This document shows positions 6,845-27,669 of a stretch of 30,085 nt of DNA, piece after piece (the stretch's first letter is position 1; every line of letters starts with the position of its first letter). Source of the DNA: a virus. Below the pieces are notes generated by a model that worked only from the letters and a program-made list of their open reading frames with translations, was not told the DNA's origin and did not search any database. A program made the position numbers and the translations under genes. The DNA is taken from the IMG/VR virus record IMGVR_UViG_3300031775_000025, positions 1 through 30,085 of that record; one strand, 5' to 3'.

Positions 6845-6861
6845 TGGTTAAAATTTAACCA
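6845..6861. promoter_or_regulatory. 17-bp palindrome, candidate operator or leader hairpin
   Basis: TGGTTAAAATTTAACCA reads as two 8-bp arms around one base. It lies between the promoter-like motif at 6870-6884 and the RBS of the first late gene, exactly where a repressor or a leader hairpin would act. The AT-rich arms would make a weak RNA hairpin, so protein binding to DNA is equally likely. Confidence 0.4.
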
Positions 6862-6869
6862 ATTGTTAT

Positions 6870-6884
6870 CTCTACTAGGGGACA
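6870..6884 (-). promoter_or_regulatory. Candidate T7-class late promoter, copy 2
   Basis: On the minus strand this reads TGTCCCCTAGTAGAG, one base from the copies at 3782-3796 and 8809-8823. It lies 35 bp before the first late gene (start 6835) and points into the late operon. It is the natural candidate for the main late promoter read by the T7-like RNA polymerase encoded at 21435-23798. Function inferred from repetition, orientation and position. Confidence 0.55.
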
Positions 6885-6965
6885 CTTCCTTAAGAAGAAA
6901 CTTAAAAAAATAATATATATATATACACCCCAAATAATTCCAATACCCCCCTTCTTCCCCTTATC

Positions 6966-6998
6966 AATTTCACATAAAGTGAAATTACTAATAATATT
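6966..6998 (+). promoter_or_regulatory. Hairpin element H0 (stem 8, loop ATAAA, then CTAATAATATT)
   Basis: Stem AATTTCAC (6966-6973), loop ATAAA, stem GTGAAATT (6979-6986), one base, then CTAATAATATT (6988-6998). It is the first of eight elements with this geometry and precedes the first early gene (7067) in the divergent control region. Between it and the gene, CTCTTC/GAAGAG and GTCC/GGAC can pair to give a structured leader. It ends no gene, so a terminator is not needed here; a hairpin promoter of the N4 type fits better. Confidence 0.6.
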
Positions 6999-7066
6999 CA
7001 CTTCTCTTCATCCGCGTCCCGACAGAAAGGACCGGAAGGAAGAGTCCAACTAAAAAGGAGATTGTT

Positions 7067-7495
7067 ATGGAAATTTGTGAATCTGCAATGGTTAATGATA
7101 TCACATACGTGGTAAAGTTAACTGGTCTGTTGAACGAACAGGCTCATGGTGACAACGATGGTAGTTACTTGGGCGATGGCTGTGCTTGGAGGTTTAAACA
7201 CAGTCGGGAGTTCGTGGTCAAGGACTGTAAGACGGCTCAGGATGCGGTGGCGTTTGTAATCGCGCTTGGGTTGGAGAATAGCATTGTCTTGAAGGAGTGG
7301 CCATACAAGGTCATGGCTTGGGACCAATGGTATTCGGATCTCGTTCATCAGGAACAAGAGCTGGTGGTGGACGGTTACGATGACGCTAAAGGTAAGACGG
7401 AGTATCAGGCTGGTAAGGCCAGGTACGTCTCGCCTAAGGACGTCAGGGCTTCTAAGGCTGAGATGGCAGCTAAGGAAGCTAAGTATGGTCTCTGA
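7067..7495 (+). CDS. Hypothetical early protein (142 aa)
   Basis: ATG at 7067 follows AAGGAGATTGTT. The product is soluble and mixed-charge (MEICESAMVNDITYVVKLTG at the start), with a Lys/Ala-rich helical C-terminus (DVRASKAEMAAKEAKYGL). No family recognised. It is the first early gene on the plus strand, behind hairpin H0, so it is likely made soon after infection and may act on host functions. Its base composition is clearly richer in G and C than that of genes downstream of 9.9 kb. Confidence 0.75.
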   Translation: MEICESAMVNDITYVVKLTGLLNEQAHGDNDGSYLGDGCAWRFKHSREFVVKDCKTAQDAVAFVIALGLENSIVLKEWPYKVMAWDQWYSDLVHQEQELVVDGYDDAKGKTEYQAGKARYVSPKDVRASKAEMAAKEAKYGL

Positions 7496-7508
7496 GGAAG
7501 GGATCGGT

Positions 7509-7539
7509 AGGAGTGGCTGGGAAACTGGCCATTCCTTTT
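7509..7539 (+). terminator. Probable intrinsic terminator
   Basis: AGGAGTGGC (7509-7517) pairs with GCCATTCCT (7528-7536), nine pairs including one G-T, closed by a 10-nt loop and followed by a short T run (7536-7539). It lies between the first early gene and the next small gene. The T run is short, so termination may be partial. Confidence 0.5.
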
Positions 7540-7566
7540 ATCAATCATTTAAAATAGGAGGTAATG

Positions 7567-7698
7567 ATGGAAGGATTTGTAAGTTGGATGTATAGCCCGG
7601 AGGTGTACGGTGCGGTAATGGTAAGCGGTGGAATGGGAGCAGGGTTCCTGGTGGTAGTCGCGTATTGTTACTGGTTGTCTGGTGGGTTTAAGTTATAG
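7567..7698 (+). CDS. Membrane mini-protein (43 aa)
   Basis: ATG at 7567 is spaced correctly from AGGAGG; another ATG directly before it is too close. The product MEGFVSWMYSPEVYGAVMVS is followed by a Gly/Val-rich span (GMGAGFLVVVAYCYWLSG) and ends FKL. One membrane segment is likely. It sits between a terminator-like hairpin and hairpin element H1. Function unknown; early membrane peptides in phages often alter the host envelope, which is only a possibility here. Confidence 0.65.
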   Translation: MEGFVSWMYSPEVYGAVMVSGGMGAGFLVVVAYCYWLSGGFKL

Positions 7699-7703
7699 GA
7701 AGG

Positions 7704-7735
7704 AAAGGCACATAAAGTGCCTTTTCTAATAATAT
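7704..7735 (+). promoter_or_regulatory. Hairpin element H1
   Basis: Stem AAAGGCAC (7704-7711), loop ATAAA, stem GTGCCTTT (7717-7724), T, then CTAATAATAT (7726-7735). Same geometry as H0. The stem differs from H0 at several positions, yet all eight pairs are kept. The T-rich right arm could also terminate transcription from upstream. Confidence 0.6.
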
Positions 7736-7738
7736 GTT

Positions 7739-7823
7739 CTTCTACGGTAGGTGTAGAAGGCATTATAACCTAGTCGTCGTCTTGGTGTCGACTGACTAGG
7801 CGTCTCTGTGGCAATTCGGCCAC
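7739..7823 (+). promoter_or_regulatory. Structured leader with three successive hairpins
   Basis: Between H1 and the gene at 7844 three hairpins follow each other: CTTCTAC/GTAGAAG (7739-7745 with 7753-7759); CCTAGTC plus GTCG pairing with CGAC and GACTAGG (7769-7800, one bulged T); and GTGGC/GCCAC (7808-7812 with 7819-7823). No reading frame explains this stretch. The RBS (GGAGGT) lies just downstream. A regulatory leader or a small stable RNA is possible. Confidence 0.5.
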
Positions 7824-7843
7824 CAACACTTAGGAGGTGTGAT

Positions 7844-8203
7844 ATGGAGACATGTTGGATGGAGGGGATGATTGCCTCTCAGGCTATTCGCGAACTGATG
7901 TTCGAGGATGGTAAGTTGCGCTCTGAAGCTGGCGTGTACAAGGCTGTACTGGATCGTTATGGTCCTCAGTCAGACCCTGATTCTATCAGGAAGTACGTCA
8001 GGAGGAAGTATGCCAATTGGATTGGTTACTTTCAGACGATGGAGGCCAATTCAAGAGATCCCAGCTGGTCGCTGATGGCTGGTAACGTTTGGGGTCCGGA
8101 GGAGTTTAAGAAGCTCTGTCCTGATTGGCAAGGAGTGTTGGAGTTGCTCGATAGGTGGTATTGTGGCGACGAGGACGATGATGACTGGGACGATAGGTCT
8201 TAG
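7844..8203 (+). CDS. Hypothetical early protein (119 aa), acidic C-terminus
   Basis: ATG at 7844 follows TAGGAGGTGTGAT. The product begins METCWMEGMIASQAIRELMF. Its middle part, SIRKYVRRKYANWIGYFQTM, is basic and helical and could bind nucleic acid, and it ends in a strongly acidic tail (CGDEDDDDWDDRS). Acidic tails of this kind occur in DNA mimics and polymerase-binding phage proteins, but no family is recognised. It is bracketed by hairpin elements H1 (with its long leader) and H2. Confidence 0.7.
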   Translation: METCWMEGMIASQAIRELMFEDGKLRSEAGVYKAVLDRYGPQSDPDSIRKYVRRKYANWIGYFQTMEANSRDPSWSLMAGNVWGPEEFKKLCPDWQGVLELLDRWYCGDEDDDDWDDRS

Positions 8204-8218
8204 TGATCCGCTAATAGG

Positions 8219-8251
8219 GAAGGCACATTAAGTGCCTTCTCTAATAATATT
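8219..8251 (+). promoter_or_regulatory. Hairpin element H2
   Basis: Stem GAAGGCAC (8219-8226), loop ATTAA (the only loop variant), stem GTGCCTTC (8232-8239), T, then CTAATAATATT (8241-8251). It lies 15 nt after the stop of the upstream gene and 18 nt before the start of the next. Confidence 0.6.
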
Positions 8252-8269
8252 CTAATCAAGGAGGATTAA

Positions 8270-8464
8270 ATCAAAAGGATATTTAGAATTAGCTACACAC
8301 TAGTGGAAGAGGATGACACCTTAACCACGGTGGAAAGGCAATTCGAAGACGAGAAGGAGTACGATAAACTGTGCTCCGAAGTCTGGCGAATGCCTAACCT
8401 GGGAGATGTCTATATGGCATCGATCCCGGTAGATCACCCATCGGCTAAAGAGCCGTTTGGATGA
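8270..8464 (+). CDS. Hypothetical protein (64 aa) with apparent ATC start codon
   Basis: The frame from 8270 to a TGA at 8464 is preceded by a perfect RBS (AAGGAGG, 5-nt gap), but the codon at the start position is ATC. An in-frame TAA stands immediately upstream, and the first GTG is 11 codons in, without an RBS. The product reads KRIFRISYTLVEEDDTLTTV then an acidic helical part and ends EPFG; it looks like a normal small protein. It lies between hairpins H2 and H3 like its neighbours. Either ATC initiates, or an ATG was lost by mutation or sequencing error. Confidence 0.55.
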   Translation: MKRIFRISYTLVEEDDTLTTVERQFEDEKEYDKLCSEVWRMPNLGDVYMASIPVDHPSAKEPFG

Positions 8465-8477
8465 TACTTATCCGGGG

Positions 8478-8510
8478 GAGGGCACATAAAGTGCCCTCTC
8501 TAATAATATT
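8478..8510 (+). promoter_or_regulatory. Hairpin element H3
   Basis: Stem GAGGGCAC (8478-8485), loop ATAAA, stem GTGCCCTC (8491-8498), T, then CTAATAATATT (8500-8510). It differs from H2 by a paired substitution in the stem (A-T to G-C), a compensatory change. Confidence 0.6.
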
Positions 8511-8538
8511 TTAATCTCTCAAAAATAGGAGGATCATT

Positions 8539-8670
8539 ATGACCCATGAAGAGATATTTGACTACGCACTTTCAGTGTATAACATAGCCTTAGGTGTTGA
8601 TGAAGTGATCAACATTGTCTCTAATGATCTGAGTGTAGATCATTATTGTAGACATAGGTCTATGTGTTAA
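8539..8670 (+). CDS. Hypothetical mini-protein (43 aa)
   Basis: ATG at 8539 follows TAGGAGGATCATT. The product (MTHEEIFDYALSVYNIALGV at the start, ending HRSMC) looks like a short helical, mostly acidic protein with a His/Cys/Arg-rich end. It lies between H3 and the terminator at 8685. Function unknown. Confidence 0.6.
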   Translation: MTHEEIFDYALSVYNIALGVDEVINIVSNDLSVDHYCRHRSMC

Positions 8671-8684
8671 AGATTGTACGAAGG

Positions 8685-8711
8685 GAGGGCCCATAAAGGG
8701 CCCTCTTTTTT
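8685..8711 (+). terminator. Intrinsic terminator built on hairpin element H4
   Basis: Stem GAGGGCCC (8685-8692), loop ATAAA, stem GGGCCCTC (8698-8705), directly followed by six T (8706-8711). Loop and stem length match the other H elements, but the CTAATAATATT tail is replaced by the T run, so this copy looks like a true rho-independent terminator closing the 7.07-8.67 kb early gene group. Confidence 0.75.
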
Positions 8712-8720
8712 ACAAAAGAA

Positions 8721-8785
8721 CCGGACTTATACCGACCGACTAATCATTTGGGTGTATAACCGTCTGCGTGGCCTGTAGAATCCGG
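8721..8785 (+). other. Non-coding stretch with nested stems
   Basis: The 328 nt from 8671 to 8998 hold no gene. In its first half CCGGA (8721-8725) can pair with TCCGG (8781-8785), enclosing TTATAC (8727-8732) paired with GTATAA (8754-8759). It begins right after the H4 terminator and precedes a promoter-like motif. It may be the end of a small RNA or chance pairing; the stems are short. Confidence 0.3.
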
Positions 8786-8808
8786 AAGTTTTCAGTGAAA
8801 AATCCCAC

Positions 8809-8823
8809 TGTCCCCTATTAGAG
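8809..8823 (+). promoter_or_regulatory. Candidate T7-class promoter, copy 3 (plus strand)
   Basis: TGTCCCCTATTAGAG, identical to the minus-strand copy at 3782-3796. It lies in the gene-free stretch after the H4 terminator and points toward the SSB/replication genes. It is the only copy on the plus strand in this window and could drive middle genes by the phage T7-like RNA polymerase. Confidence 0.5.
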
Positions 8824-8892
8824 GAAGGGGTTGCGGGGCCCTGTATACCTCTATATATACTAAGAGTATGCCAATTGGATGATTTTCATGGT

Positions 8893-8922
8893 AGTCAGGT
8901 GTCTCTCAAAGGCCACCTGGCT
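8893..8922 (+). promoter_or_regulatory. 9-bp leader hairpin
   Basis: AGTCAGGTG (8893-8901) pairs with CACCTGGCT (8914-8922) through nine pairs including one G-T, with a 12-nt loop. It is downstream of the promoter-like motif at 8809 and upstream of hairpin H5, thus in the leader of any transcript from that promoter. Role unknown. Confidence 0.4.
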
Positions 8923-8948
8923 AAAGGGTACAGTATGGCCACATGAGG

Positions 8949-8981
8949 AGCGAGAGATAAACTCTCGCTGCTAATAATATT
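8949..8981 (+). promoter_or_regulatory. Hairpin element H5
   Basis: Stem AGCGAGAG (8949-8956), loop ATAAA, stem CTCTCGCT (8962-8969), G, then CTAATAATATT (8971-8981). The stem sequence is almost wholly different from H0-H4, yet loop, spacer length and downstream box are the same. It precedes the gene at 8999. Confidence 0.65.
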
Positions 8982-8998
8982 AATTTGAAAGGTATACT

Positions 8999-9154
8999 AT
9001 GTTATCATTTCTCGACACTGTATTGCTATGTGTGGATATCATTAATGGTATCTTGTTAGCATGTTTGTTAGTAATTATTATATTCTTTATTCCTATCTTT
9101 TGGGAAGATGTTGTGTTCTTTATGCAACATTTAATGCGTCCTAGTGGCGCGTGA
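8999..9154 (+). CDS. Membrane mini-protein (51 aa)
   Basis: ATG at 8999 after GAAAGGTATACT. The product is very hydrophobic (MLSFLDTVLLCVDIINGILL, then LLVIIIFFIPIFW), probably one long or two short membrane spans, with a polar end (MQHLMRPSGA). Its TGA stop lies inside hairpin element H6, so translation of this gene would disturb that hairpin. Function unknown. Confidence 0.6.
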   Translation: MLSFLDTVLLCVDIINGILLACLLVIIIFFIPIFWEDVVFFMQHLMRPSGA

Positions 9155-9178
9155 TAAACACGCGCTGCTAATAATATA
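9146..9178 (+). promoter_or_regulatory. Hairpin element H6
   Basis: Stem GGCGCGTG (9146-9153) with CACGCGCT (9159-9166; outer pair G-T), loop ATAAA, G, then CTAATAATATA (9168-9178). It lies 33 nt before the SSB gene and overlaps the stop codon of the gene before it. Confidence 0.65.
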
Positions 9179-9210
9179 TTATCTTTTAACCAACTATAAA
9201 GGAGTTTCTC

Positions 9211-9705
9211 GTGAGTACATATCCTCGTTCTATAATCTTAAAAGATCTTACAGCTAAGTTTTGTCGTATCTCAGGTACTGACGCACCCGTTAACCCATTC
9301 GGTTCTAAGCAATGGGAAATGGTGATTCAGACTTCTGATGCTGACAAAGTTCAAGAGCTTAAAGATCTAGGTCTCAACGTCAAGCAAGATAAAGAAGACG
9401 AAAAGACCTTCAACGTTAACCTGAAGCGCAAAGGTATTAAAGCCGACGGCAACCCTAACGCACCAGTGAAAATCGTAGACTCTAAGTTACAGCCTTTAGA
9501 GGGCAATAACATTGGTAACGGATCCAAAGTTAATGTCAACTTGTGGCAGTATGAGTACGAAGCACCTGGTCGCAAAGGTGTAGCCACTTCGCTTACTGCA
9601 GTGCAAGTCGTAGAGCTCGTAGAGTATACGCCAACTGCTGGATTTGAAGTCGTCGGTGAAGCACCTGCTGAAGCAAAAGCTGAAGAACAAGAGTTGCCAT
9701 TCTAA
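9211..9705 (+). CDS. Single-stranded DNA-binding protein, T7 gp2.5-like
   Basis: 164 residues from a GTG start at 9211 (RBS AAGGAG). The body has an OB-fold-like pattern of short strands (KVNVNLWQYEYEAPGRKGVA, VQVVELVEYTP) and a DFNV-type core (KTFNVNLKRKGIKADGNPNA). The C-terminus is an acidic tail ending EEQELPF, the typical hydrophobic-ended tail through which T7 gp2.5 contacts DNA polymerase and primase-helicase. Those partners are encoded at 15669 and 19065. Its stop overlaps the next start (TAATG). Confidence rests on size, tail and context. Confidence 0.8.
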   Translation: MSTYPRSIILKDLTAKFCRISGTDAPVNPFGSKQWEMVIQTSDADKVQELKDLGLNVKQDKEDEKTFNVNLKRKGIKADGNPNAPVKIVDSKLQPLEGNNIGNGSKVNVNLWQYEYEAPGRKGVATSLTAVQVVELVEYTPTAGFEVVGEAPAEAKAEEQELPF

Positions 9706-9776
9706 TGTCTGTCTCGTTCTTTATAGTCCTTGGGGTCGTAATAATCGGCCTCATTGTGCTTCAAGAAAGACACTAA
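9705..9776 (+). CDS. Tiny membrane peptide (23 aa), coupled to SSB
   Basis: Starts at the ATG of TAATG overlapping the SSB stop, ends in a second TAATG. The product is one membrane span (FFIVLGVVIIGLIVLQ) with the charged end ERH. Absence of its own RBS and exact stop-start overlaps imply translation by re-initiation after SSB. No family recognised. Confidence 0.5.
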   Translation: MSVSFFIVLGVVIIGLIVLQERH

Positions 9777-9841
9777 TGTTTACCATAACAATCCTCCTGC
9801 TCTTGGTCCTTGTGGTGCTTGTTGGCGTACGTTTGTACTAG
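9776..9841 (+). CDS. Tiny membrane peptide (21 aa)
   Basis: Second link of the TAATG chain after SSB. Product MFTITILLLLVLVVLVGVRL plus Tyr: almost pure Leu/Val/Ile. Its base composition (many CTC, CTT, GTG, CTG) differs from AT-rich neighbours. Together with the 23-residue peptide it may form a two-part membrane unit; function unknown. Confidence 0.45.
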   Translation: MFTITILLLLVLVVLVGVRLY

Positions 9842-9921
9842 TCAACGAGTGTCAGAAGGACCGGGAGTTTAAAAAAGAAACACCGTCATTAACCGTATTA
9901 TTGTGCTAATAGGAGTTTACT

Positions 9922-10128
9922 ATGATTCATGCAATAATTCTAATATGCTCTCTCAATTCTGATTGTTATTATATTTCAGATAATTGGGGACCTTATAATA
10001 CAATAGATAATTGTCTTTATCGTACTATTACGATGCATAAAGACGCAACCAATTTATTACCAAAGTACAAATCTATTTCTTCCCATTGTACTACAAGTAA
10101 ATTCATGACAAAAGGAGATAACGCATGA
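9922..10128 (+). CDS. Hypothetical protein (68 aa), possible exported
   Basis: ATG at 9922 after TAGGAGTTTACT. A short hydrophobic start (MIHAIILICSL) followed by a Cys-containing polar part (NSDCYYISDNWGPYNTIDNC and SSHCTT) suggests a secreted or membrane-anchored protein with disulfides. It opens a tightly packed operon: its stop overlaps the next start (ATGA). The 80-nt gap before it contains a motif (CAGAAGGACCGGGAG) also found in near-identical form at 7023. Confidence 0.6.
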   Translation: MIHAIILICSLNSDCYYISDNWGPYNTIDNCLYRTITMHKDATNLLPKYKSISSHCTTSKFMTKGDNA

Positions 10129-10574
10129 ATCGTAATTTAGTATATTTCCCAGCTGTCAGAATAGCCATGAAGAAAACTACTGACGAACTCGATCGTCTCA
10201 TGGAAGAAGCCAGTAAAGACAATAATGCAGCAGCTTTAGAAGCCTATCAAACCGCTTTTGCGCTGCTCAGAGAAGGTATCTTAAGAGTAGAAAACCAAGG
10301 CCATTCTAAATTTCATGTAGAAGTAGATGAAGCCTTAGAAGAAATCTTAAAGAGAGGAAGATCCAAGTATATTACTATGCATGCAAATAAAATGATGAGA
10401 CTTTGTAAAGACGCATTTGATGAAACTTGTATTAAACTTGCAACTGAAATAATAGAAATGCTTAAAGAAAAAGGGGTTTCTAAAGAAACTTTAAATGATA
10501 ACTATGTTGATATATATGAAGCAGCTTGTTATCAAGTTAAAGAAGTTTATAACGCAAAAGGAATAGATGTATGA
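10125..10574 (+). CDS. Hypothetical helical protein (149 aa)
   Basis: ATG at 10125 overlaps the previous stop; its own stop overlaps the next start (10571). The product is largely helical and charged (TTDELDRLMEEASKDNNAAA, EVDEALEEILKRGRS, LATEIIEMLKEKG). No domain recognised. Being in the middle of the early operon next to DUF3310, it may be a regulatory or nucleotide-metabolism accessory protein, but nothing proves it. Confidence 0.7.
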   Translation: MNRNLVYFPAVRIAMKKTTDELDRLMEEASKDNNAAALEAYQTAFALLREGILRVENQGHSKFHVEVDEALEEILKRGRSKYITMHANKMMRLCKDAFDETCIKLATEIIEMLKEKGVSKETLNDNYVDIYEAACYQVKEVYNAKGIDV

Positions 10575-10855
10575 AAATAGGTGATAAATTAGCAAAAGAC
10601 TTTATGACCATAGACGAGTTGCTTGTCAACAGTCCACCTCATTACAAGCAAGGAGACGTTGAGTGTATTGAGGCAATTAAGTCTGCCTGTGGTGCAGAGT
10701 ATCAAGGCTACCTACAAGGTAACATCATGAAATACATCTGGCGTTACCGTGCAAAAGGTCAATCAATAAATGATCTTAAGAAAGCTCAATGGTATCTGAA
10801 AGAACTTATCGTTGATGAACAAAACCGTTTAACGTTTGAAGAGGAAACTCCATGA
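10571..10855 (+). CDS. DUF3310 protein
   Basis: 94 residues. The segment HYKQGDVECIEAIKSACG, then YLQGNIMKYIWRYRAKG and DLKKAQWYLKELI, is the characteristic DUF3310 pattern (HY..G..ECI, G N..KYI.R...K....DL.KA..YL..L) found across phages, often near DNA metabolism genes. Its molecular role is not established to my knowledge. Start and stop overlap the neighbours by 4 nt each, so it is part of the translationally coupled early operon. Confidence 0.88.
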   Translation: MKIGDKLAKDFMTIDELLVNSPPHYKQGDVECIEAIKSACGAEYQGYLQGNIMKYIWRYRAKGQSINDLKKAQWYLKELIVDEQNRLTFEEETP

Positions 10856-11811: not shown

Positions 11812-11833
11812 ACTTTACTTAATGGAGAATGAT

Positions 11834-12629: not shown

Positions 12630-12819
12630 ATGGGTAGTAATGTTTGAACCCTTCGATGACGAAGGCTTTGAATACGTAAGAATAGGTAAAGTCTGGGATA
12701 TGAATACACCTATTAAAGTGTTTACTAACAGAGATGAAGCCGAAAAAGAAAAACGTAGATGGAATACCGGCGTTGTAACTGAATGGAGAAATGAAGATGT
12801 TAACTACGAGGAACATTAG
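12619..12819 (+). CDS. Hypothetical protein (66 aa)
   Basis: The product MAHKWVVMFEPFDDEGFEYV with VFTNRDEAEKEKRRWNT looks like a compact alpha/beta protein. The start at 12619 overlaps the previous gene by 11 nt; an alternative ATG lies at 12598. Neither has a strong RBS, so the start is uncertain. It overlaps the hydroxymethylase start by 23 nt. Function unknown. Confidence 0.6.
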   Translation: MAHKWVVMFEPFDDEGFEYVRIGKVWDMNTPIKVFTNRDEAEKEKRRWNTGVVTEWRNEDVNYEEH

Positions 12820-13525
12820 AGACAGATTTATTGATAAATTTAAAGATCAAGACTTTGAAGAAGATGGTAACATAGAAGTACTAGGCGCAAGTTTTATAGC
12901 TGATGAAGAAAGTATCTTTGGAACACCTAATGCAAAGTATCAGCAAGCTGAAGTTATTTGGTATAACAGCCAAAGTTGTAACACCGACAAGCTGAGAGAT
13001 ATTTATGGTAAAGTACCAGCCATTTGGGAACATGTTGCTAATACTAGAGGTAGTGTTAACTCGAATTACGGTCACTTAATCTTTTCAGCTCTAAACGGTA
13101 GCCAATATGAGAATGCTCATAGAGAATTAAAGAGAAACCCTGATTCTCGTAGAGCAACTATGATATATCAACACCCAGACATGCATCAGAGACACAGAGA
13201 GCATGGTAAGGATGACTTTGTGTGCACAAATGCTGTAACATACTATAATAAGTTAGGCATACTTCACGCTGTAGTACAGATGCGCTCGAATGATGTTGTA
13301 TTTGGGTACATTAATGACTATTATTGGCAATTTAAAGTATTAGAGCGGTTAGCTGGTGACTTAGAACTAGAAGTCGGAGGAATTTTATGGCAAGCTCAGA
13401 GTTTACATATGTATCCTCGTCATTTTAAGTTAATCGAAGACTATTTACATATTGAAGGGCTTCGTATAGAAAAGGCAAAGCCTGTAGACTATGCGGTAGA
13501 AGATATAGGAGCTCATAATGAATAA
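12797..13525 (+). CDS. Deoxycytidylate (dCMP) hydroxymethylase, T4 gp42-like
   Basis: 242 residues from the ATG at 12797 (GGAG 8 nt upstream; another ATG at 12791 is too close); T4 gp42 has 246. It transfers a one-carbon unit from methylene-tetrahydrofolate to dCMP, giving 5-hydroxymethyl-dCMP. As far as I remember gp42, long stretches match: IEVLGASFIADEESIFG, RGSVNSNYG, NPDSRRATMIY, DDFVCTNAVTYY and MRSNDVVFGYINDYYW. Cys143 corresponds to catalytic Cys148, and Asp174 to Asp179, which selects cytosine over uracil; thymidylate synthases have Asn there. So it is the hydroxymethylase, not ThyA. A thymidylate synthase (ThyX) is encoded separately. Confidence 0.92.
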   Translation: MLTTRNIRDRFIDKFKDQDFEEDGNIEVLGASFIADEESIFGTPNAKYQQAEVIWYNSQSCNTDKLRDIYGKVPAIWEHVANTRGSVNSNYGHLIFSALNGSQYENAHRELKRNPDSRRATMIYQHPDMHQRHREHGKDDFVCTNAVTYYNKLGILHAVVQMRSNDVVFGYINDYYWQFKVLERLAGDLELEVGGILWQAQSLHMYPRHFKLIEDYLHIEGLRIEKAKPVDYAVEDIGAHNE

Positions 13526-15620: not shown

Positions 15621-15653
15621 GGCGCGGGATAAACCCGCGCCGCTAAAAATATA
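15621..15653 (+). promoter_or_regulatory. Hairpin element H7
   Basis: Stem GGCGCGGG (15621-15628), loop ATAAA, stem CCCGCGCC (15634-15641), G, then CTAAAAATATA (15643-15653). Same geometry as H0-H6, 6.5 kb away from them, and directly before the DNA polymerase gene. A GC-only stem in an AT-rich surrounding shows that the stem, not its sequence, is kept. Confidence 0.65.
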
Positions 15654-15668: not shown

Positions 15669-17531
15669 ATGCAATTAGTATTTGACATAGAAACTGATGG
15701 CTTTCTAGAAGACATGACAGTTTGTCACGTTCTTGTATGCCAAGACGCTGTTACTAAGAAAGTATATACTTATACAGACCAACCCAATGATACACCTATT
15801 AAAGTAGGGTTAGACTTAATGTCTAAAGCCGAAGCATTAATAGGCCACAACATTATTGGATTTGACTTAATGGGTCTTGAAAAGTTATATGGATGGAAAC
15901 CATCTGAACATACCGTCTTGATAGACACCTGGGTTATGAGCCAAACACTACAGTTTAACCGACCACATAAACATGGTCTTGCTGGTTGGGGTAATCATTT
16001 AGGGTTTAAGAAAATGGATAATTCTGAATGGGCAGCTGATGGGTTTAAGACATACGACCCAAAGATGATTGAGTATTGTATACAAGACGTAAAACTTAAT
16101 ACAAAAGTATACGAAGTCTTATTAGCCGAGCTACATAAGGCTGTTGAAACTAACCCTTTAATTAAGAAAGGATTAAGAGTTGAGCATGATGTAGCTGTAT
16201 TTGAGTCTATGGTACGTAAAAAAGGCTGGATGTTTGATTTACATAAAGCTAAAGAAAATATCGGACTTATGTCAAAACATATGTCTAAGATAGAATCTAT
16301 TATTGAACCAAAGTTAGGTGAGACTAGAGTATTCTTAGATAAAGCACCGAAGACTGCTAAGTATACTAAAGCAGGATTTTATACAGCAACTACTGCTAGA
16401 ATATTATCCGAGTATTTAGATAAGAAAGTAATAGGTGAAGATGCCTTATCCGATAATCCACCTATAAAACCTGGTGAAGAGTTCCAAAGATCTGCTATGG
16501 AGAAAGTTACTCTTAGTAATATGGATCACGTTAAAGAATGGTTAAAGACTATTGGTTGGAAACCAGATGATTGGAACGTAAAGAAAGGACAACATGGACA
16601 ATGGATTCGTACAGGTCCTAAGCTTACGTCTACTTCTCTTGCTAAACTAGGTAGACAAGGTAAGCTTATTGATAGATACTATACTATTAAGAACCGTAAA
16701 GCAACCATTGAATCATGGTTAGAAAGGATAGAGTTAGATGATAAGTCAGGGGAATATCGTCTTCATGGAAGGATGTTTACTATTGGGACTCCTTCTTTTA
16801 GATGCCGTCATGAGGTTATCGTTAATCTTCCAGCCGTTAATGCGCCGTATGGTAGGATGCTTAGGGAATTATTCATCGCTGAGCACGGTTATAGGGTTGT
16901 CGGTGCGGATAGTGCTGGTAATCAACTGCGTGGATTATGTCATTACGTGGGAGATAAATCCTACACAGAGTTGGTGGTTAATGGGGATCAACATTCAAGG
17001 AATGCTACTGTTCTTGGTTGCAGCCGCAGCATCGCTAAGTCTTTTCTATACGCTATTCTCTTTGGTGCAGGAGACGCTAAACTCGGTCAAGCTCTTACTG
17101 GGGTTAGCAGCGCGCCTAAAGGTAAAGAGGCACGGCAAAAGTTCATGGCGAATTTACCTGGATTTGGAACGCTAGTAGATAAACTTAAAGGAGTATTTAA
17201 TCATTATGGTTGTATACCAGGCCTTGATGGTCGTAAGATCTATGCAAGATCTGATTATCAGGTATTAAACTATTTACTACAGACCACTGAAGGTATTACT
17301 TGTAAATCTGCTTTGAGTTATGCTATGAATAAGATTAAAGAGGAAAAGCTTGATGCTTATCCTGCTATATTCTATCATGATGAACAAGCTTGGATAGCAA
17401 GTGATAAAGACTCTCACCGTGTGGGAGAGATCCTACAAGAATCCTTTCGTGAAGCACCAAAATGGTTTGGTGTTGAGTGTATGGATGGTGGTGACTATGT
17501 AATAGGCAACTCATACGCGGAGGTACACTAA
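15669..17531 (+). CDS. DNA polymerase, family A (T7 gp5-like)
   Basis: 620 residues. Exonuclease domain: FDIETDG (Asp6, Glu8), LIGHNIIGFDLMGLEKLYGW, and YCIQDVKLN. Polymerase domain: motif A at Asp414 (ADSAGNQLRGL), O-helix RSIAKSFLYAILFGAG (Arg453, Lys457, Tyr461, matching T7 Arg518, Lys522, Tyr526), and motif C HDE at 570-572. In motif A, Gln419 stands where nearly all family A enzymes have Glu (T7 Glu480), the ribose-excluding steric gate residue. A segment at about 16740-17170, coding for motif A and the O-helix, is richer in GC than both ends of the gene. ATG after GAAAGGAACTAT; hairpin H7 lies upstream. Confidence 0.95.
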   Translation: MQLVFDIETDGFLEDMTVCHVLVCQDAVTKKVYTYTDQPNDTPIKVGLDLMSKAEALIGHNIIGFDLMGLEKLYGWKPSEHTVLIDTWVMSQTLQFNRPHKHGLAGWGNHLGFKKMDNSEWAADGFKTYDPKMIEYCIQDVKLNTKVYEVLLAELHKAVETNPLIKKGLRVEHDVAVFESMVRKKGWMFDLHKAKENIGLMSKHMSKIESIIEPKLGETRVFLDKAPKTAKYTKAGFYTATTARILSEYLDKKVIGEDALSDNPPIKPGEEFQRSAMEKVTLSNMDHVKEWLKTIGWKPDDWNVKKGQHGQWIRTGPKLTSTSLAKLGRQGKLIDRYYTIKNRKATIESWLERIELDDKSGEYRLHGRMFTIGTPSFRCRHEVIVNLPAVNAPYGRMLRELFIAEHGYRVVGADSAGNQLRGLCHYVGDKSYTELVVNGDQHSRNATVLGCSRSIAKSFLYAILFGAGDAKLGQALTGVSSAPKGKEARQKFMANLPGFGTLVDKLKGVFNHYGCIPGLDGRKIYARSDYQVLNYLLQTTEGITCKSALSYAMNKIKEEKLDAYPAIFYHDEQAWIASDKDSHRVGEILQESFREAPKWFGVECMDGGDYVIGNSYAEVH

Positions 17532-21105: not shown

Positions 21106-21544
21106 GGAAAACACTAATGAAGTAGTGAGGTACCCTGAAGATATGTATTGTGTTTACTTCCATAAAGATCCTGATAGTGATAACGTAATATATGTAGGTA
21201 AAGGTACCTTACACAGAGCATACCAAATAACTAATCGTAGTTACGATCACCATGTTTGGTTGTTAGATAAACTAGGTAATCATACGATTCAAGATATAGT
21301 AGTAATCAAAGGCGGTCAGATGACCGACAAAGAAGCTACTGTAGTAGAATCTCATGAAATTAAATGTTGCTTAAGGCGTGGGTCTGACTTATTTAATGTC
21401 ACACATAACCCGTTCCGCAAAACTAGGAGAGAGAATGCAGAATGTAATAGAGTATTTAGAACAGAAAATTATCAGTACACCTCAGAGGTGGGCAGTAAGG
21501 CTGGTGAACGAACACAAGTTAGAACCAAAGAGAGTCGTGTATGA
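21086..21544 (+). CDS. GIY-YIG domain protein (possible endonuclease)
   Basis: Start at TTG 21086 (GGAG six nt upstream) overlaps the deaminase end; other starts are possible. About 152 residues. The GIY-YIG elements are MYCVYFHKDPDSDNVIYVGK, then the Arg in HRAYQ and the Glu in VESHEIKC, which carry the catalytic Arg and metal-binding Glu. Such domains occur in homing and free-standing nucleases, or as degenerate phage domains. The last about 36 residues are read from DNA that also codes for the start of the RNA polymerase. Lying between two core genes, it may be a mobile, homing-type insertion. Confidence 0.7.
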   Translation: MRNIEIRENTNEVVRYPEDMYCVYFHKDPDSDNVIYVGKGTLHRAYQITNRSYDHHVWLLDKLGNHTIQDIVVIKGGQMTDKEATVVESHEIKCCLRRGSDLFNVTHNPFRKTRRENAECNRVFRTENYQYTSEVGSKAGERTQVRTKESRV

Positions 21545-23798
21545 TGCATTAACTATATTACAATACCATTTTAGAAAGACTTCAACATCTGAATCAGCAA
21601 CATGTAAACTTACAGCAGCTTCAGTAGCTATTGGTAAGAACGTGTTGCTTCAGAAAGGAGTTGAGTTAGGATTTAGAGCCGATGTAACAGTCGGCGACCT
21701 AATTCTTGAAGCATTCTATGAATGTAAGTATATTAAAATAGTTAGAGCTCCTACTGAAGCTCAAATAAAGTGGGAAGCAAACCCAGTAGGTAAGAAACCT
21801 TTTAGTCGTGCTCCATATATGATTGAGACTTCTGAAAAATGGTTAAACATTGGGTCGCTTCCTGACCAAGTAGTTAACGAGCTTATACAAAACACTTCAT
21901 TCAAGAAGATTAAGCGTATAAGTAGACTGTTTCAAGACAATGGATACCCGGTCATTAAGCATTGGGGATATGATAGAGACGAAGATTTCAAGCTACTACT
22001 TGAAGAACCTTTCGTTGACGCTATCAATAAGCTACAACGTACAGCTTGGACCATTGATGCTGATATATTAGAGGCTGTACAGAAAAACAAACGGAAGTTT
22101 GTTAGTGAAACCTTAAAAGTATCTGATAAGACAGGTAAGAATTACCGTTACTGTATCTTCGGTAATAATAAAGAGTTAGAGAGTAAAGACTTATACTGGA
22201 ATGGAGTTGTCTTCAAACCTGAGTTAGGTAATAAGTCTCTTGAGAAAAAGTATTATGGTGAACTTAGACGATTGACTAATAAGTTACGTAATAAACCTAA
22301 CAAGAAGCCGTTACATACTATGCAAGGTAAATATGATGAAGCGGCTACTCATTGGAATGCTAAGTTAGTATTACTTAAAAACCGTAGTAAGTTTGATGCG
22401 TATAATATGACTATCCAAAAGGCTGAAGCCTTGAAGGATAAAATCTTCTTTCAATATATCGATGCAGATTATAGGGGGAGATTGTATTATCGTGAATCAT
22501 ATCTAAACTATCAAGGTAAAGATATGGAACGGGGGTTATTAAAGTTTGCTCAAGCAAAACCAATAACCGAGGAAGGGTTATATTACTTTGCTGTACATAC
22601 AGCGTGTAGTTATAACCAATCGTATTCAATCGATAATATACCAGAGTGGTGTGAAGCCGATTATAAATCAGCGTTAGAAGATGAAGGTCTTACGGATATC
22701 TCTGTAGATAAGATGACCATTGATGACCGAGTTAAATGGGTCGTCAACAACGAAGACTTCATCAGAAATACGTGGGTTAATCGAACTATCCATGAGAAAG
22801 CTGAGAAACCTGTAGGTTTTCTTGCCTGTTGTAAGGCGTGGTGTAAGTTATGGGATCAAGAGTCTGAAGATGGTGTACACTACATCGATCTTCCTGTTCC
22901 TATTGATGGTTCTAATAATGGTTGGCAGCATTTAGCTGCTATATCTAAGGACGAAAAGGCTGGAGAGTTAGTCGGCTTGGTTAAAACCGATATACCGAAA
23001 GACTTTTACGTGCAAACAGCTAAAGCTTTGATATCCCGTGTGCCTGACTGGTTCGCGCAGAGAGCCATGCCTATGAAACACATAAGGAAAGGTATATCGA
23101 AGCGCGGAGCGATGACTAGAGCGTACTCTGCTGGCCACCTAGCCATAGCTTTGAACATGTATGCTGACTGTTATGCCGAAGGATTCCATAGTAAGTACGA
23201 TATTACTATGTCTGACTGTAATGATTTAGCTTATCAACTAATAAAAGCTATTGATGAGGTCTGTCCGGGTCCGTTAGAGACTATGAGCTACCTTCAAGCA
23301 ATAGCAAACCATATTATTGCTGAGCTAAAGGAACCAGTAGTCGATTGGATAACTCCATCTGGCTTTCCAGTACGATACGAAAACTACGTAATGGAAGACG
23401 TCAAGTGGAAGAGTTGGATCTCTGATATGAGGATCCAGCACGTAGGTAAGGAACACCGGTTGGTATACGGTAAAAAGATACCTAGTCCAGGTGGCTTTGC
23501 CTCAGGTATTAGTCCAAACTTTATTCATAGTATGGACGCAGCTCATATGGCTCTGATTATCCATCACTGGGACGGAGACTTTGCTGCAATTCATGACTCA
23601 TTTTCTACTCACGCTTGTGATGTAGCTAGCTTATTAGGTTTAACTAAGGAAGTGTTCATTAAAATGTACGATCATGATGATTTCTATAAGCACATAGCTG
23701 ATATGCTATTGTTTGAACCTGATAACTTTAATTACAATTACAAATTAGGAGATCTAAATATAGAAGGAATAGCTGATAGTGACTATTTCTTCTCATAG
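21435..23798 (+). CDS. T7-like single-subunit RNA polymerase
   Basis: 787 residues from ATG 21435 (RBS AGGAGAGAGA); the frame extends upstream without a better start. Motif A DGSNNGWQHLAAISKDE with Asp491; motif B KRGAMTRAYSAG with Tyr564; ISPNFIHSMDAAH; motif C AIHDSFSTH with Asp721. These match T7 Asp537, Lys631/Tyr639 and His811/Asp812. It would transcribe phage genes from its own promoters; TGTCCCCTATTAGAG (three copies) is the best candidate. In T7 the polymerase gene is early and near one end; here it is the second-last gene of the early block. Confidence 0.96.
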   Translation: MQNVIEYLEQKIISTPQRWAVRLVNEHKLEPKRVVYDALTILQYHFRKTSTSESATCKLTAASVAIGKNVLLQKGVELGFRADVTVGDLILEAFYECKYIKIVRAPTEAQIKWEANPVGKKPFSRAPYMIETSEKWLNIGSLPDQVVNELIQNTSFKKIKRISRLFQDNGYPVIKHWGYDRDEDFKLLLEEPFVDAINKLQRTAWTIDADILEAVQKNKRKFVSETLKVSDKTGKNYRYCIFGNNKELESKDLYWNGVVFKPELGNKSLEKKYYGELRRLTNKLRNKPNKKPLHTMQGKYDEAATHWNAKLVLLKNRSKFDAYNMTIQKAEALKDKIFFQYIDADYRGRLYYRESYLNYQGKDMERGLLKFAQAKPITEEGLYYFAVHTACSYNQSYSIDNIPEWCEADYKSALEDEGLTDISVDKMTIDDRVKWVVNNEDFIRNTWVNRTIHEKAEKPVGFLACCKAWCKLWDQESEDGVHYIDLPVPIDGSNNGWQHLAAISKDEKAGELVGLVKTDIPKDFYVQTAKALISRVPDWFAQRAMPMKHIRKGISKRGAMTRAYSAGHLAIALNMYADCYAEGFHSKYDITMSDCNDLAYQLIKAIDEVCPGPLETMSYLQAIANHIIAELKEPVVDWITPSGFPVRYENYVMEDVKWKSWISDMRIQHVGKEHRLVYGKKIPSPGGFASGISPNFIHSMDAAHMALIIHHWDGDFAAIHDSFSTHACDVASLLGLTKEVFIKMYDHDDFYKHIADMLLFEPDNFNYNYKLGDLNIEGIADSDYFFS

Positions 23799-23802
23799 GT
23801 AA

Positions 23803-23988
23803 ATGAGTATGATTAAAATAAAACCAGACGGTAAGATAGGTATAGATGAAGAAGATATTGCTTTCATATATAAATATGGTATCGTATTTCTTAATGGCAA
23901 TGAGATACATTACTCTCAAAGCTTTATAAAGAGATACGTAGAGCAAAATAACTTACAACATCTATACCACCACGATATATGTGGTTAA
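23803..23988 (+). CDS. Hypothetical protein (61 aa), last early gene
   Basis: ATG at 23803, 5 nt after the polymerase stop, with a weak RBS (TAGGTAA). The product MSMIKIKPDGKIGIDEEDIA is a compact beta-type sequence ending HHDICG. It ends directly at the stop of the convergent large late gene. Function unknown. Confidence 0.6.
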   Translation: MSMIKIKPDGKIGIDEEDIAFIYKYGIVFLNGNEIHYSQSFIKRYVEQNNLQHLYHHDICG

Positions 23989-23996
23989 TTACATAT
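23977..23996. terminator. Convergent gene junction with weak inverted repeat
   Basis: The stop codons of the early (23986-23988) and late (23989-23991) strands abut with no spacer. ATATGT (23977-23982) and ACATAT (23991-23996) could form a 6-bp AT-rich hairpin in either direction. There is no GC-rich stem and no T run, so a strong terminator is not visible and read-through in both directions is possible. Confidence 0.3.
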
Positions 23997-26900
23997 CTAT
24001 TTGAAGCTTACGGAAGTCCTTAGCGGCTTCCATAAGTTTCTTTTTAGCTTTACCGACATCTTCAATTGTTTTATAGTTACGTGAAAGGACGTTTAGTCCA
24101 GTGTTTTTTGGTTTAATCTTTTGGTGCTTCCACTTATTTGTTTTAGGATCTTGAACTGGTTCAGCTCCAACTCCTTCGACTCCTAGTATATTATCAAAGA
24201 GTCTTAACAAGTTATTACCAGAAAGCTCTTTTACTTGCTTACCTTTCATACTATTAGCTTTTGGTAAAAGATTAGCAGCAAGTCCTTCAGCTCTAACTCT
24301 TTTCTTCCACTCATAAGACTTTACTGGTTCTCCTCGCTCTCTAGGAGGGTGATCCATAGTATCATATAGTGTTGTAACTAAATTCTCTTCACTAAACAAA
24401 TTAGTTTCTGTATCATTGAGTAACCAGTAAAAACCTCTATACTCATTATCCATATTAATATCGACTTTAGTATCCCCAATATTTCTAAGCTTGGTTCTAA
24501 ACCTTTGTATAGCTCCGGGTGTCCAGTCTTCCATTAGACTGTTGACGTAAGAATACTCTTCGATAACATTCCACCAATTATCATTAGCAAGTTCTCTTGC
24601 TTTCCTAGCTCCTCTTAAATCTGTCTTTACGGCATCCATAATAGGTAGCATATATTGTCTGTTCATCTTAGCCCACGATGCACCAGTAAACATTCGGTTC
24701 ATCCATGCACCATCGATACCTTGTATAACAGCCGGTATAATTCTGCCTCTACCCCAGCCACCAGGCTTGCCTTTTCTTACAGCACTTCCTGAAGGTTGTG
24801 ATTCATATAAAGGTACTGCTCCAGCTCTTTTTACTGGAGAATCTTTACCAAACATAACTCCTGTGTTTCCATGAATATCATCTCTCATCATAGTACTTCT
24901 AGCACCGATATAATTATCAACACCAATAGCATTCTTAACTTTCATAACTTCATCGGATAGCATAGCAACTACGTTGTTAGCTCTAAGTAGTTGACCAACT
25001 TGTACAACTCCAGGATCTAATTCAGCATCAATAGCATCTGCTAGTATGTTATGTAAGTAATCCGCAACAATGTCTTCTCTTGTTGGAATTACCATTCCTT
25101 TAGTTGCAGCAATCTTTTTATCTACAACAGCTCCAACCTGTTTACTGTTTATAATTTGTCGTATCTTAACAGAAGAAGGGCCAATAAATATAGTATCGAT
25201 TATAGCTTTTCTTAAGTTTTTTAATAACTGCCCATAAGCTAAAGTCATAGGAGGCTTTTTAAGAAAATTATCTCTATCTTTTAAAGCTAACTTTAATATC
25301 TTATTCATACTAGAAGCTATATCAGTATTACGCGAAAAGTTTTGAGCATATATTTGACCATTTTCTTCCATAAAATAGTTCATAGCATCTCGAATATCGC
25401 CAGCTTGAAGATCAGGTTCTGTCTCTGCTCCTTGGTATAGGTCAGCTACAGGTATACTATCTAAATTTTTAGTAGCACCAGCCTTTCTTAATACTCCAGC
25501 TCTAAATGCAGCCTTCATAGAACCTAATTGCATTAAATTACTAGCAGGTCCGTGAGTTTTACCATCAAATTCTATACCTATATTACTTTGAAATGATGTA
25601 TTAGATTTCTTAGCTTGTTCAAATTTAAATAACTCATGAGCAGCTTCGATAAGCTGTAATCCTTCTAATTCTTCACCAATAGCTTTCTTTTTTAAGTTAC
25701 CAGATATATTTAATCTAGGTATTGAAGCTAATTCAGGAGGTATACTAATACCTTTAGAAGTCATCCCAATCTTTTTCATTGATTCTAAAGACTTTTGATC
25801 TTGATCAGAGTCTAATAAGCTTTCAGATATAGATTTACCGTCTTGGATATAGCTCGCAAACTTACCATGGTTAGGACTATTCCATTCAGCGTCAAAAGCA
25901 GCAACCCTATTTTCAGGTAATAGCTTATCTGCTCCTGGTATAAAGTGTTTTGCCATTAGCTCTTTAAACATTAATGTTTCATCTGAGTTAACAGCATTAG
26001 GATTTACAGTTGGAGGATTTAACCCACCAGTTACAAATCTAATCCAAGGAATTAATTGAGGATTAAATCTAGTCTGAGTAAAGTGCATTCTAGTTTGAAG
26101 CTCTTGTACAGCTGGATCTAAATAATTAGCTTGATTACTATACTTTGCAATGGTGTTTAAAGTTTCTATAAATTTAGTAATCTGCTTTTCCATTTCAAAT
26201 TCAGGTTTATAATCAGTATTAGGATCATCTAATAATTTCTTATCTAATTCTCCTCTAAACGCTATCATTTTAGCAGGACCGATTTTTAATAGATCACCTA
26301 TTTCAGGAGGTCTAGTTGAATTCTTTAATCCAGTGAGTACTTCCATAGCTAATTGAACATATATTTTTCTTCTCAAAGGATCTACACCATGAGCAACACT
26401 GTTCATATTATCTCGAGCTTCCTCTACTTCTCTTATTTTTTGCTCAATAACAGAGGTAGTCTTAGCTTTTCTATATTTTTTAGATTCTCCTTCACCAGCC
26501 TCAGTTACCCGTTGTCTACGTCTAGGTATAGTAGAAGGTGGTATCTCGTAACCACTGAACACTTCAGGAGAAGATGCTTCAGCAGCAGCTAAAGCTGTAG
26601 CTCCTAATGGTGTAAGTTTAAATTGTACGTTCCTATCATCTAAAGAACCTCTATCAGAAGAATATAATTCAGGATTAGCTGCATGATACATTTCTTTAGC
26701 AGTAACACCTAACGTTTCAAACTGATCTGCTGTAACTCCGGCTTCAGTGTATTCATCAGTTGGTCTACCTTGCATAGCGTTCTGTTCTCGTTTCCAAGCT
26801 CTAAATATTTCTCGACCTAACTGCTGGTTTCCTATACCTCTTCTTAATACTCCTTCTTCTGTTGTAACTCGCTCTACTTCAGATAAAGCTTTTTCAGAAA

Positions 26901-27669
26901 AATCTTCTAAGCCTCCTTCTGCTTCAGTGTCTTGTTTTGCTGGTACATTATATTGATTTTGTAATATAAATTTTTCTGTAGCTAATCCCATTATTCTAGC
27001 AAACAAAGGATGCACTTGCATTTTAAACCCTTCATCCATTACTTGACCAGCATTAAATCCTTTGGGATCAAACAATATCCCTTTAACAGAGTTAGGATTT
27101 ATCTCTTGACCTGACATTGTACCAGCTTCTTCAGGAGTAGCTCCCATAATTATAGGTACACTTTGTGCTTCAGTAAGATAAGCTCCAGCAACTGTAGCTC
27201 CTGATTCTAGTTTAGAATGAAACATGGTTGTAAATCTATCAGATCTTTTTATTGATTCACCCATACCATCATTAGTATAATCTTCAAAGTCTAGTACGTC
27301 TTCTCGTATCTCACTAAAAGGTATTACTCTTTCTCTTTCTCTATTTTCTACAGCTTCATCTGCAAATATTCTAGAATCTGATTCTTCTATTATACTTCGA
27401 AACTTTTCTCTTTGTGCTATTTGAGAGTCCGATAATTCTCTACCTTTTTGTATATCAGGTATATCAAACTTAACAACAGGTGGTGGAGTAGAAGGTTGTT
27501 CTTGAAATAAGGTAGTAGGCTTTTGTGCTTCTAAAGAAACAGGGCCTCTTTCTTGAAGTCCTTCTATTGGTGTCTTAGGTCTAAGCCTTTCACCTAAAGC
27601 AGCTGAGGAAGCTTCGCGATCTTTTACCATCTCCATTAAACCACTTTGTGGATTTATTCTTATTGCCAT
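23989..27669 (-). CDS. Large virion-type protein with N4-vRNAP-like RNA polymerase motifs
   Basis: 1226 residues from ATG 27669 (GGAG in TTTGGAGAATAAT). The C-terminal half carries the T7/N4 single-subunit polymerase motifs in order: motif A IEFDGKTHGPASNLMQLG (Asp702), motif B RDNFLKKPPMTLAYG (Arg799, Lys804, Tyr812), a segment IQGIDGAWMNRMF (Asp986), and motif C PIMDAVKTD (Asp1012). Spacing A-B-C is 110 and 200 residues, compared with 102 and 173 in T7. WIRFVTGGLNP (Arg544) may be the TxxGR region. Motif C has Met instead of the usual His. The N-terminal 500 residues are charged and unrecognised. It follows an ejection-type protein in the late operon, as expected for a polymerase packaged in the virion and injected with the DNA. 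Confidence 0.72.
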   Translation of the reverse strand: MAIRINPQSGLMEMVKDREASSAALGERLRPKTPIEGLQERGPVSLEAQKPTTLFQEQPSTPPPVVKFDIPDIQKGRELSDSQIAQREKFRSIIEESDSRIFADEAVENRERERVIPFSEIREDVLDFEDYTNDGMGESIKRSDRFTTMFHSKLESGATVAGAYLTEAQSVPIIMGATPEEAGTMSGQEINPNSVKGILFDPKGFNAGQVMDEGFKMQVHPLFARIMGLATEKFILQNQYNVPAKQDTEAEGGLEDFSEKALSEVERVTTEEGVLRRGIGNQQLGREIFRAWKREQNAMQGRPTDEYTEAGVTADQFETLGVTAKEMYHAANPELYSSDRGSLDDRNVQFKLTPLGATALAAAEASSPEVFSGYEIPPSTIPRRRQRVTEAGEGESKKYRKAKTTSVIEQKIREVEEARDNMNSVAHGVDPLRRKIYVQLAMEVLTGLKNSTRPPEIGDLLKIGPAKMIAFRGELDKKLLDDPNTDYKPEFEMEKQITKFIETLNTIAKYSNQANYLDPAVQELQTRMHFTQTRFNPQLIPWIRFVTGGLNPPTVNPNAVNSDETLMFKELMAKHFIPGADKLLPENRVAAFDAEWNSPNHGKFASYIQDGKSISESLLDSDQDQKSLESMKKIGMTSKGISIPPELASIPRLNISGNLKKKAIGEELEGLQLIEAAHELFKFEQAKKSNTSFQSNIGIEFDGKTHGPASNLMQLGSMKAAFRAGVLRKAGATKNLDSIPVADLYQGAETEPDLQAGDIRDAMNYFMEENGQIYAQNFSRNTDIASSMNKILKLALKDRDNFLKKPPMTLAYGQLLKNLRKAIIDTIFIGPSSVKIRQIINSKQVGAVVDKKIAATKGMVIPTREDIVADYLHNILADAIDAELDPGVVQVGQLLRANNVVAMLSDEVMKVKNAIGVDNYIGARSTMMRDDIHGNTGVMFGKDSPVKRAGAVPLYESQPSGSAVRKGKPGGWGRGRIIPAVIQGIDGAWMNRMFTGASWAKMNRQYMLPIMDAVKTDLRGARKARELANDNWWNVIEEYSYVNSLMEDWTPGAIQRFRTKLRNIGDTKVDINMDNEYRGFYWLLNDTETNLFSEENLVTTLYDTMDHPPRERGEPVKSYEWKKRVRAEGLAANLLPKANSMKGKQVKELSGNNLLRLFDNILGVEGVGAEPVQDPKTNKWKHQKIKPKNTGLNVLSRNYKTIEDVGKAKKKLMEAAKDFRKLQIDM

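Follow-up and report, generated by a model that had tools for sequence, protein, structure and literature searches.

How does a phage that encodes two different RNA polymerases divide its genes between them? This question is raised by a viral contig of 30,085 nucleotides (nt) (IMGVR_UViG_3300031775_000025; the window, meaning the whole of this stretch), which carries early/replication genes on the + strand from position 7067 and late genes on the - strand at both of its ends. The window phage belongs to a group of uncultured marine podophages related to Roseobacter phage CRP-7 (MK613349). It encodes a T7-like single-chain RNA polymerase (RNAP) of 806 amino acids (aa) (21378..23798, +) and, on the late strand, a 1226-aa open reading frame (ORF; 23992..27669, -), which is a shortened homologue of the virion RNA polymerase (vRNAP) of phage N4. 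Anatomy, homology, covariation and co-divergence together make it highly probable that these enzymes form a two-polymerase, probably host-independent cascade, in which the vRNAP would act on hairpins and the T7-like RNAP on the linear motif TGTCYCCTATTAGAGA. In the best-supported reading, early genes work like those of N4 and late genes like those of T7.

On its own, the 1226-aa ORF gave a single weak match, to PHROG 2206 (virion RNA polymerase, 1.5e-4), at motif A. When relatives, taken from IMG/VR scans, were included, 7 of 16 family members matched this PHROG (best 4.2e-11), and profile-profile comparison with nine Schitoviridae vRNAP domains (hhalign) gave a probability of 94.9 and an E value of 4e-8 over 538 columns, among them an R-M...NPQ block at the position of TxxGR. 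The same family profile reached a probability of 1.7 against the group's own T7-like RNAP, so that the homology extends beyond generic T7-like RNAPs. Invariant residues of the family include those of motif A, E700-x-DG-x-THG (EXDGXTHG), motif B, LK-x-P-x-MTL-x-YG, in which K and Y are spaced by 8 as in T7 and N4, and motif C, QxxDGAWMN ... P-I-x-DA; the aspartates of A and C and the K/Y of B are thus fixed. Motif A fits ExDGxxxG, the signature used for recognising N4-type vRNAPs (PMC10654107), the E of which is missing from the phage's own T7-like RNAP. A hidden Markov model search of PDB sequences with the vRNAP alignment returned chance matches only, and a fold search was therefore needed. 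The AlphaFold2 (AF2) model (predicted local distance difference test, pLDDT, 78.5; predicted template-modelling score, pTM, 0.71) resembles single-subunit RNAPs; the longest alignments, which covered 764-788 residues with Z about 21, were with N4 mini-vRNAP promoter complexes, T7 and mitochondrial RNAPs being tied in Z with fewer residues aligned. The predicted fold is that of a single-subunit RNAP, and by sequence profile the protein belongs to the N4 vRNAP branch. What differs is size, as the giant length of N4-type vRNAPs (about 2800-3800 aa) was not found: members of the group have 1172-1697 aa, versus 2842-3820 aa in Schitoviridae (PMC10654107). The survey in that paper dropped proteins under 2500 aa, and surveys with a 2,500-aa cut-off would have overlooked such short vRNAPs. 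With tblastn, the vRNAP had no match in cultured phages or in bacterial genomes. The vRNAP of one relative, G010 (L016:3897-8693, 1599 aa), has a weak NADAR match near its C-terminus (Pfam E 8e-4, below the cut-off).

Like full-length N4 gp50, the predicted vRNAP contains no cysteine, a feature that has been linked in LUZ7 and LIT1 to passage through tail and periplasm (PMC3715699). Cysteine was absent from 21 of 22 vRNAP sequences (the window and 20 of 21 relatives, some of them partial) and occurred once in the remaining one, i.e. 1 in 25,932 residues, compared with about 15 per 1000 in the T7-like RNAPs of these phages. The neighbouring gene (27671..29833, -; its frame leaves the window) encodes a putative ejection or inner virion protein, also cysteine-free, with matches to PHROG 6958/30152 (virion structural protein). 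Its counterpart in the relative G002 has 1364 aa and lies, with ORFs of 990, 241, 226 and 185 aa, beside the vRNAP gene; all five are cysteine-free. The arrangement is that of N4 and other Schitoviridae, in which the vRNAP comes first on the - strand, convergent with the + strand early/replication genes, and is followed by further virion proteins of ejection type. The cysteine-free sequence, the position in the late block and the ejection-type neighbours indicate that the vRNAP is probably carried in the particle and injected. CRP-7 has three adjacent genes, gp33, gp34 and gp35, annotated as hypothetical, that encode cysteine-free proteins of 1235, 1368 and 1223 aa; in gp33, stretches resembling motifs A, B and C can be read (EADARQSNAG; RGLVVAGLYG; IHDA). 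By these motifs, read by eye, by position and by absence of cysteine only, gp33 is a candidate vRNAP.

Seven hairpin elements precede early genes. All are on the + strand, the early strand to which the first-pass annotation had assigned the hairpins; in 60 dinucleotide shuffles, no comparable family had more than 1 member. In each, a loop ATAAA or ATTAA is followed after exactly 9 nt by CTAATAATAT (CTAAAAATAT in the last one). Element 1 (6966..6997, loop ATAAA at 6974-6978, CTAATAATAT) lies before the ORF at 7067, and elements 2 (7704..7735, loop 7712-7716), 3 (8219..8250, loop ATTAA at 8227-8231), 4 (8478..8509, loop 8486-8490) and 5 (8949..8980, loop 8957-8961) follow. Element 6 (9147..9177, loop 9154-9158) precedes the gene for a gp2.5-like single-strand DNA-binding protein (SSB; 9211..9705, +), and element 7 (15621..15652, loop 15629-15633) stands directly before the conserved family A DNA polymerase gene polA (15669..17531, +). 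The stems show two-sided changes at all 8 pairs, with 100% of cells pairing, and fold as single-stranded DNA with -6 to -12.7 kcal/mol (z from -3.9 to -6.4). An eighth hairpin (8685-8705, +) shares the ATAAA loop but is probably a terminator, given the T run that follows it (8685..8711). The short hairpin, conserved loop and fixed distance to a conserved block are those of an N4-type hairpin promoter, the distance being measured to the block and the position of the transcription start itself being deduced. The 3-nt loop with central purine and the 5-7 bp (base pair) stem of N4 were not found; across the phages of the group, loops have 4-6 nt and stems 7-10 bp, and the number of elements also differs (seven in the window, three in N4).

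The exact window pattern had no match in 31 relatives and CRP-7, which at first seemed to contradict conservation of the hairpins. De novo search in the relatives revealed families that differ phage by phage: ATAAA/ACAAG with a block of CTAATAATAT type in the window, X052, G002 and G031; ATTC/ATCC with TTTTTAAACA in G005; ATAC/ATTC with CCTTAATATA in G015, G033 and X063-X068; ATAAA with TTTATAC/TTTAAAC in G013 and G049; and AGAA with ATAGATAAAG in G019, further families being present in other phages. A hairpin of at least 7 perfect pairs was found just before polA in 13 of the 17 group contigs that have the polA start; the other four, all of one subclade, had no hairpin of at least 5 perfect pairs there.

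Because polA is conserved, it provides one orthologous hairpin site per phage. G013 and G005 are 99% identical in the T7-like RNAP and 100% in polA, with vRNAPs only 46% identical; between near-identical flanks, the polA-site hairpin changes from GCGCGCC-ATAAA-GGCGCGC in G013 to GCGCGAT-ATTC-ATCGCGC in G005, the loop and the loop-proximal pairs being altered together. Similarly, G002 and G015 (RNAP 99%, polA 96%, vRNAP 45% identical) differ by a loop change from ATAAA to ATAC, and G002 and G027 (RNAP 99%, vRNAP 75%) share the same element. In a Mantel test on nine genomes, loop distance correlated with vRNAP distance (r 0.68, p 0.005; given RNAP 0.68, p 0.007) and not with T7-like RNAP distance (r 0.17, p 0.25). 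Since the N4 polymerase contacts the loop, the closing region and -8G (PMC4496689), the positions that changed are those expected to set specificity. These findings support the view that the hairpin class follows the vRNAP rather than the T7-like RNAP. Nucleotide identity drops at the 3' end of the vRNAP gene, from 91% to unalignable/67% in G002/G015 (G015:17197) and from 97% to 64-75% in G013/G005 (G013:15415), and in G002/G015 it returns to 86% beyond the ejection genes. Such abrupt losses at a gene boundary are consistent with exchange of a vRNAP-ejection cassette.

The T7-like RNAP has the expected hallmarks: a Pfam RNA_pol match (3.7e-53) with DxxGR and motifs A, B and C, and a match to PHROG 414 (5.7e-103). 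It is 25-28% identical to Autographiviridae-type RNAPs, and part of it matches PHROG 2166, 'N4-like RNA polymerase'. The linear motif, previously noted at 6870, 3782 and 8809, was confirmed at these sites. It is exact at 3782-3796 (-) and 8809-8823 (+) and has one mismatch at 6870-6884 (-); as 16-mers, the copies are TGTCCCCTAGTAGAGA (6869..6884, -), where the late block begins, with the terminase large subunit gene terL (5058..6713, -) as the first large late gene behind it; TGTCCCCTATTAGAGA (3781..3796, -), which lies within the late block, where it overlaps the thyX-like gene at its 3' end; and TGTCCCCTATTAGAGG (8809..8824, +). From the window alone the motif is only suggestive, as 9 of 100 shuffles equal its three matches at up to 3 mismatches. 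Judged across relatives, it is real beyond doubt: the 16-mer recurs in 66 distinct 60-nt contexts with 16 conserved columns and unrelated flanks, chance matches at 15/16 or better amounting to 0.0 per genome. The three near-complete relatives (G002, G005 and G019; 56-60 kb) have four copies each, upstream of terL, in the thyX/terL-portal gap, in the + strand early region and upstream of a class II-type ribonucleotide reductase (RNR) gene (Pfam Ribonuc_red_lgC 5e-111), behind which come a large tail-type gene, cysteine-free genes and finally the vRNAP gene. The motif is nearly constant where the T7-like RNAP is 73-99% identical, which supports the conclusion that it tracks this polymerase. In CRP-7 a motif TATAGTCCCCTATTAAAAGGA, with the core GTCCCCTATTA in common, occupies equivalent places: it is found at the late start, ahead of the RNR gene and on the early strand, where one copy directly precedes the RNAP gene. 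The two weaker of the CRP-7 copies, with 17-18 of 21 positions matching, are less secure, since about 2 matches per genome at 15 or more of 21 are expected by chance.

The copy at 8809 had been placed before middle genes. It is indeed the sole early-strand copy, and a G-rich non-coding stretch comes next. In the window (8809-8948) and after the corresponding copies in G002 (19117), G005 (34478) and G019 (13332), a G-rich stretch (e.g. AGAGAGGGGGTTGTGGGGCCGG) is followed by AT-rich non-coding DNA; it is present in nearly all relatives, often directly before the next hairpin element. Because of this stretch at a conserved position, the copy at 8809 may have a further role besides middle-gene transcription, the region being a candidate transcription-primed replication origin or small RNA.

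An alternative is that host polymerase makes the early mRNAs and that the hairpins function at the RNA level, as 5' stabilisers, RNase processing sites or attenuators. In favour of this, they would also form in the transcript, being located on the sense strand 5' of early genes, and the related hairpin at 8685 resembles a true terminator. Yet stabilisers would not be expected to show a fixed 9-nt spacing from loop to block, a loop that is kept while the stem sequence is free, or a loop that, between near-identical genomes, switches along with the vRNAP. There was also no Rfam match; we regard this explanation as quite unlikely. Least probable of all is host sigma-70 transcription of the early genes, with the AT block (TAATAT) as a -10 box and the vRNAP-like protein as merely a structural or ejection protein. 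CTAATAATAT does contain the -10-like TAATAT, one scan match overlaps element 1, and a polymerase fold is by itself no proof of activity. However, sigma-70-like sites were not enriched in the scan (28 versus 30.2 in shuffles), the AT block varies in relatives (TTTAAACA, TTTATAC, ATAGATAAAG) though the hairpin persists, and the catalytic-motif residues of the vRNAP named above are invariant.

A different alternative concerns the linear motif, which might be read by host RNAP with a phage factor instead of the T7-like RNAP. In N4, late genes are transcribed by host RNAP with N4SSB as activator (PMC4496689), and the window phage, too, has an SSB. The motif, however, consists of 16 nt in one compact block with CTATTAGAGA at its end, and has no -35/-10 layout. 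Among phages whose RNAPs are 73-99% conserved its variation is only slight, and CRP-7, in which the RNAP is 36% identical, retains the core and has one copy just before the RNAP gene. Host reading of the motif therefore appears improbable, and recognition by the T7-like RNAP is preferred.

Several observations weigh against the proposed cascade. In the vRNAP family, the first arginine of motif B is not conserved. The position equivalent to the N4 start site (10th nt past the loop) holds C, a pyrimidine, in the window elements, so that the true start may be a few bases further on. CRP-7 has no comparable hairpin before polA and no hairpin family was found in it, and hhalign of the vRNAP profile against CRP-7 gp33 alone gave no support. 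The co-switching sample is small, nine genomes with about two to three independent switches. Finally, the downstream part of the hairpin element also follows the backbone phylogeny (r 0.57 with RNAP distance); a partial Mantel test on the whole element is confounded by this, and only the loop result is relied on.

With these points taken into account, the two-polymerase cascade would proceed as follows. The cysteine-free N4-type vRNAP of about 1,200 aa would be packaged with other cysteine-free ejection proteins and enter the cell with the DNA. As anatomy and co-divergence suggest, it would then begin transcribing early genes from the single-strand-type hairpins, where it would recognise the loop with its closing pairs and initiate about 10 nt past the loop, at the conserved AT block; the claim that an injected polymerase reads the hairpins gains support from the way in which their class tracks the vRNAP. 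Element 7 is the final promoter that can be recognised ahead of the co-directional gene run from polA to the T7-like RNAP, which supports the suggestion that the hairpins lead to this polymerase. The T7-like RNAP would recognise TGTCYCCTATTAGAGA as a duplex motif, in keeping with the constancy of the motif wherever that RNAP is conserved. In the near-complete relatives, copies of the motif mark the late start, occur within the late block and precede the RNR-tail-ejection-vRNAP run, and the vRNAP gene, part of the late (-) block, comes after linear motifs; the second polymerase would thus make the vRNAP for the next virions, as had been anticipated. The terminator-like eighth hairpin, the additional linear copy that near-complete relatives have a long way ahead of their vRNAP gene and the phage-specific hairpin families go beyond the first-pass annotation.

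The early part of this scheme resembles N4, with hairpins before early genes, a start region about 10 nt past the loop, and the loop and loop-proximal pairs as the changing, presumably recognised, part (PMC4496689). N4 also makes a second T7-like polymerase after its vRNAP, RNAPII (gp15/gp16), but this is a heterodimer that needs gp2 and short AT-rich sites (PMC4496689), in contrast to one 806-aa chain and a 16-nt motif here; vRNAPs are almost always accompanied by such a heterodimeric RNAP, according to the same review. Unlike N4 late genes, which depend on host sigma-70 RNAP, those of the window phage are apparently under a phage polymerase, which suggests a simpler two-polymerase scheme with late genes independent of host RNAP. 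Full-length vRNAP together with heterodimeric RNAPII, the sole Schitoviridae hallmarks examined, was not found, and the data do not identify the window phage as a schitovirus. As in T7 and other Autographiviridae, there is a single-chain RNAP with intact motifs and a compact duplex motif with CTAT ahead of a purine-rich start; the T7 promoter is CACTATAGGGAGA. Apart from the low RNAP identity, the difference is that the motif here would drive a few large operons and the RNAP gene itself lies behind a vRNAP-type hairpin. A literature search of incomplete coverage found no description of a vRNAP or of hairpin promoters in CRP-7-type phages, and the paper on CRP-7 (PMC6918029) mentions only the ORF30 RNAP.

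What is new here is that the vRNAP is small, that the second RNAP is a single chain with a predicted duplex promoter for late genes, and that polymerases and promoters have apparently been re-matched in nature. We lean towards a lineage outside Schitoviridae in which transcription is wholly phage-encoded and the vRNAP/ejection cassette has been exchanged between near-identical genomes, with every hairpin promoter re-specified to match. Detailed knowledge of hairpin promoters read by an injected polymerase comes essentially from N4. Here the vRNAP is compact, with about a third of the length of the N4 enzyme, and almost isogenic genomes carry many natural variants of its specificity, so that loop reading by this enzyme class, and polymerase-promoter co-evolution after a swap, become directly testable. 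If the scheme is true, these phages hold a natural library of orthogonal polymerase-hairpin pairs, with the constant T7-like polymerase/promoter pair as internal control. The cultured CRP-7 makes part of the scheme testable now, and its gp33 is open to re-annotation.

CRP-7 is the nearest cultured phage (terL 56%, T7-like RNAP 36% identical, same gene layout); the window had no direct DNA match to cultured phages, and Rfam and tRNA scans of it gave no match. The left late block (-) contains genes for portal, endolysin, ThyX, a cell-wall hydrolase and terminase, and the right one (-) the 1226-aa ORF and the virion-type protein beside it. Between polA and the T7-like RNAP gene lie, on the + strand, genes for an exonuclease (from 18022), a primase-helicase (from 19065) and a dCMP deaminase (from 20665). 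The divergent early/late junction (6800-7000) is internal in the contig and at the genome ends in the CRP-7 record, which suggests circular permutation or a different terminus. Genes of both thymidylate synthase families occur in this one phage, ThyX-type (Thy1) at 3784-4407 (-) and ThyA-type at 12791-13525 (+).

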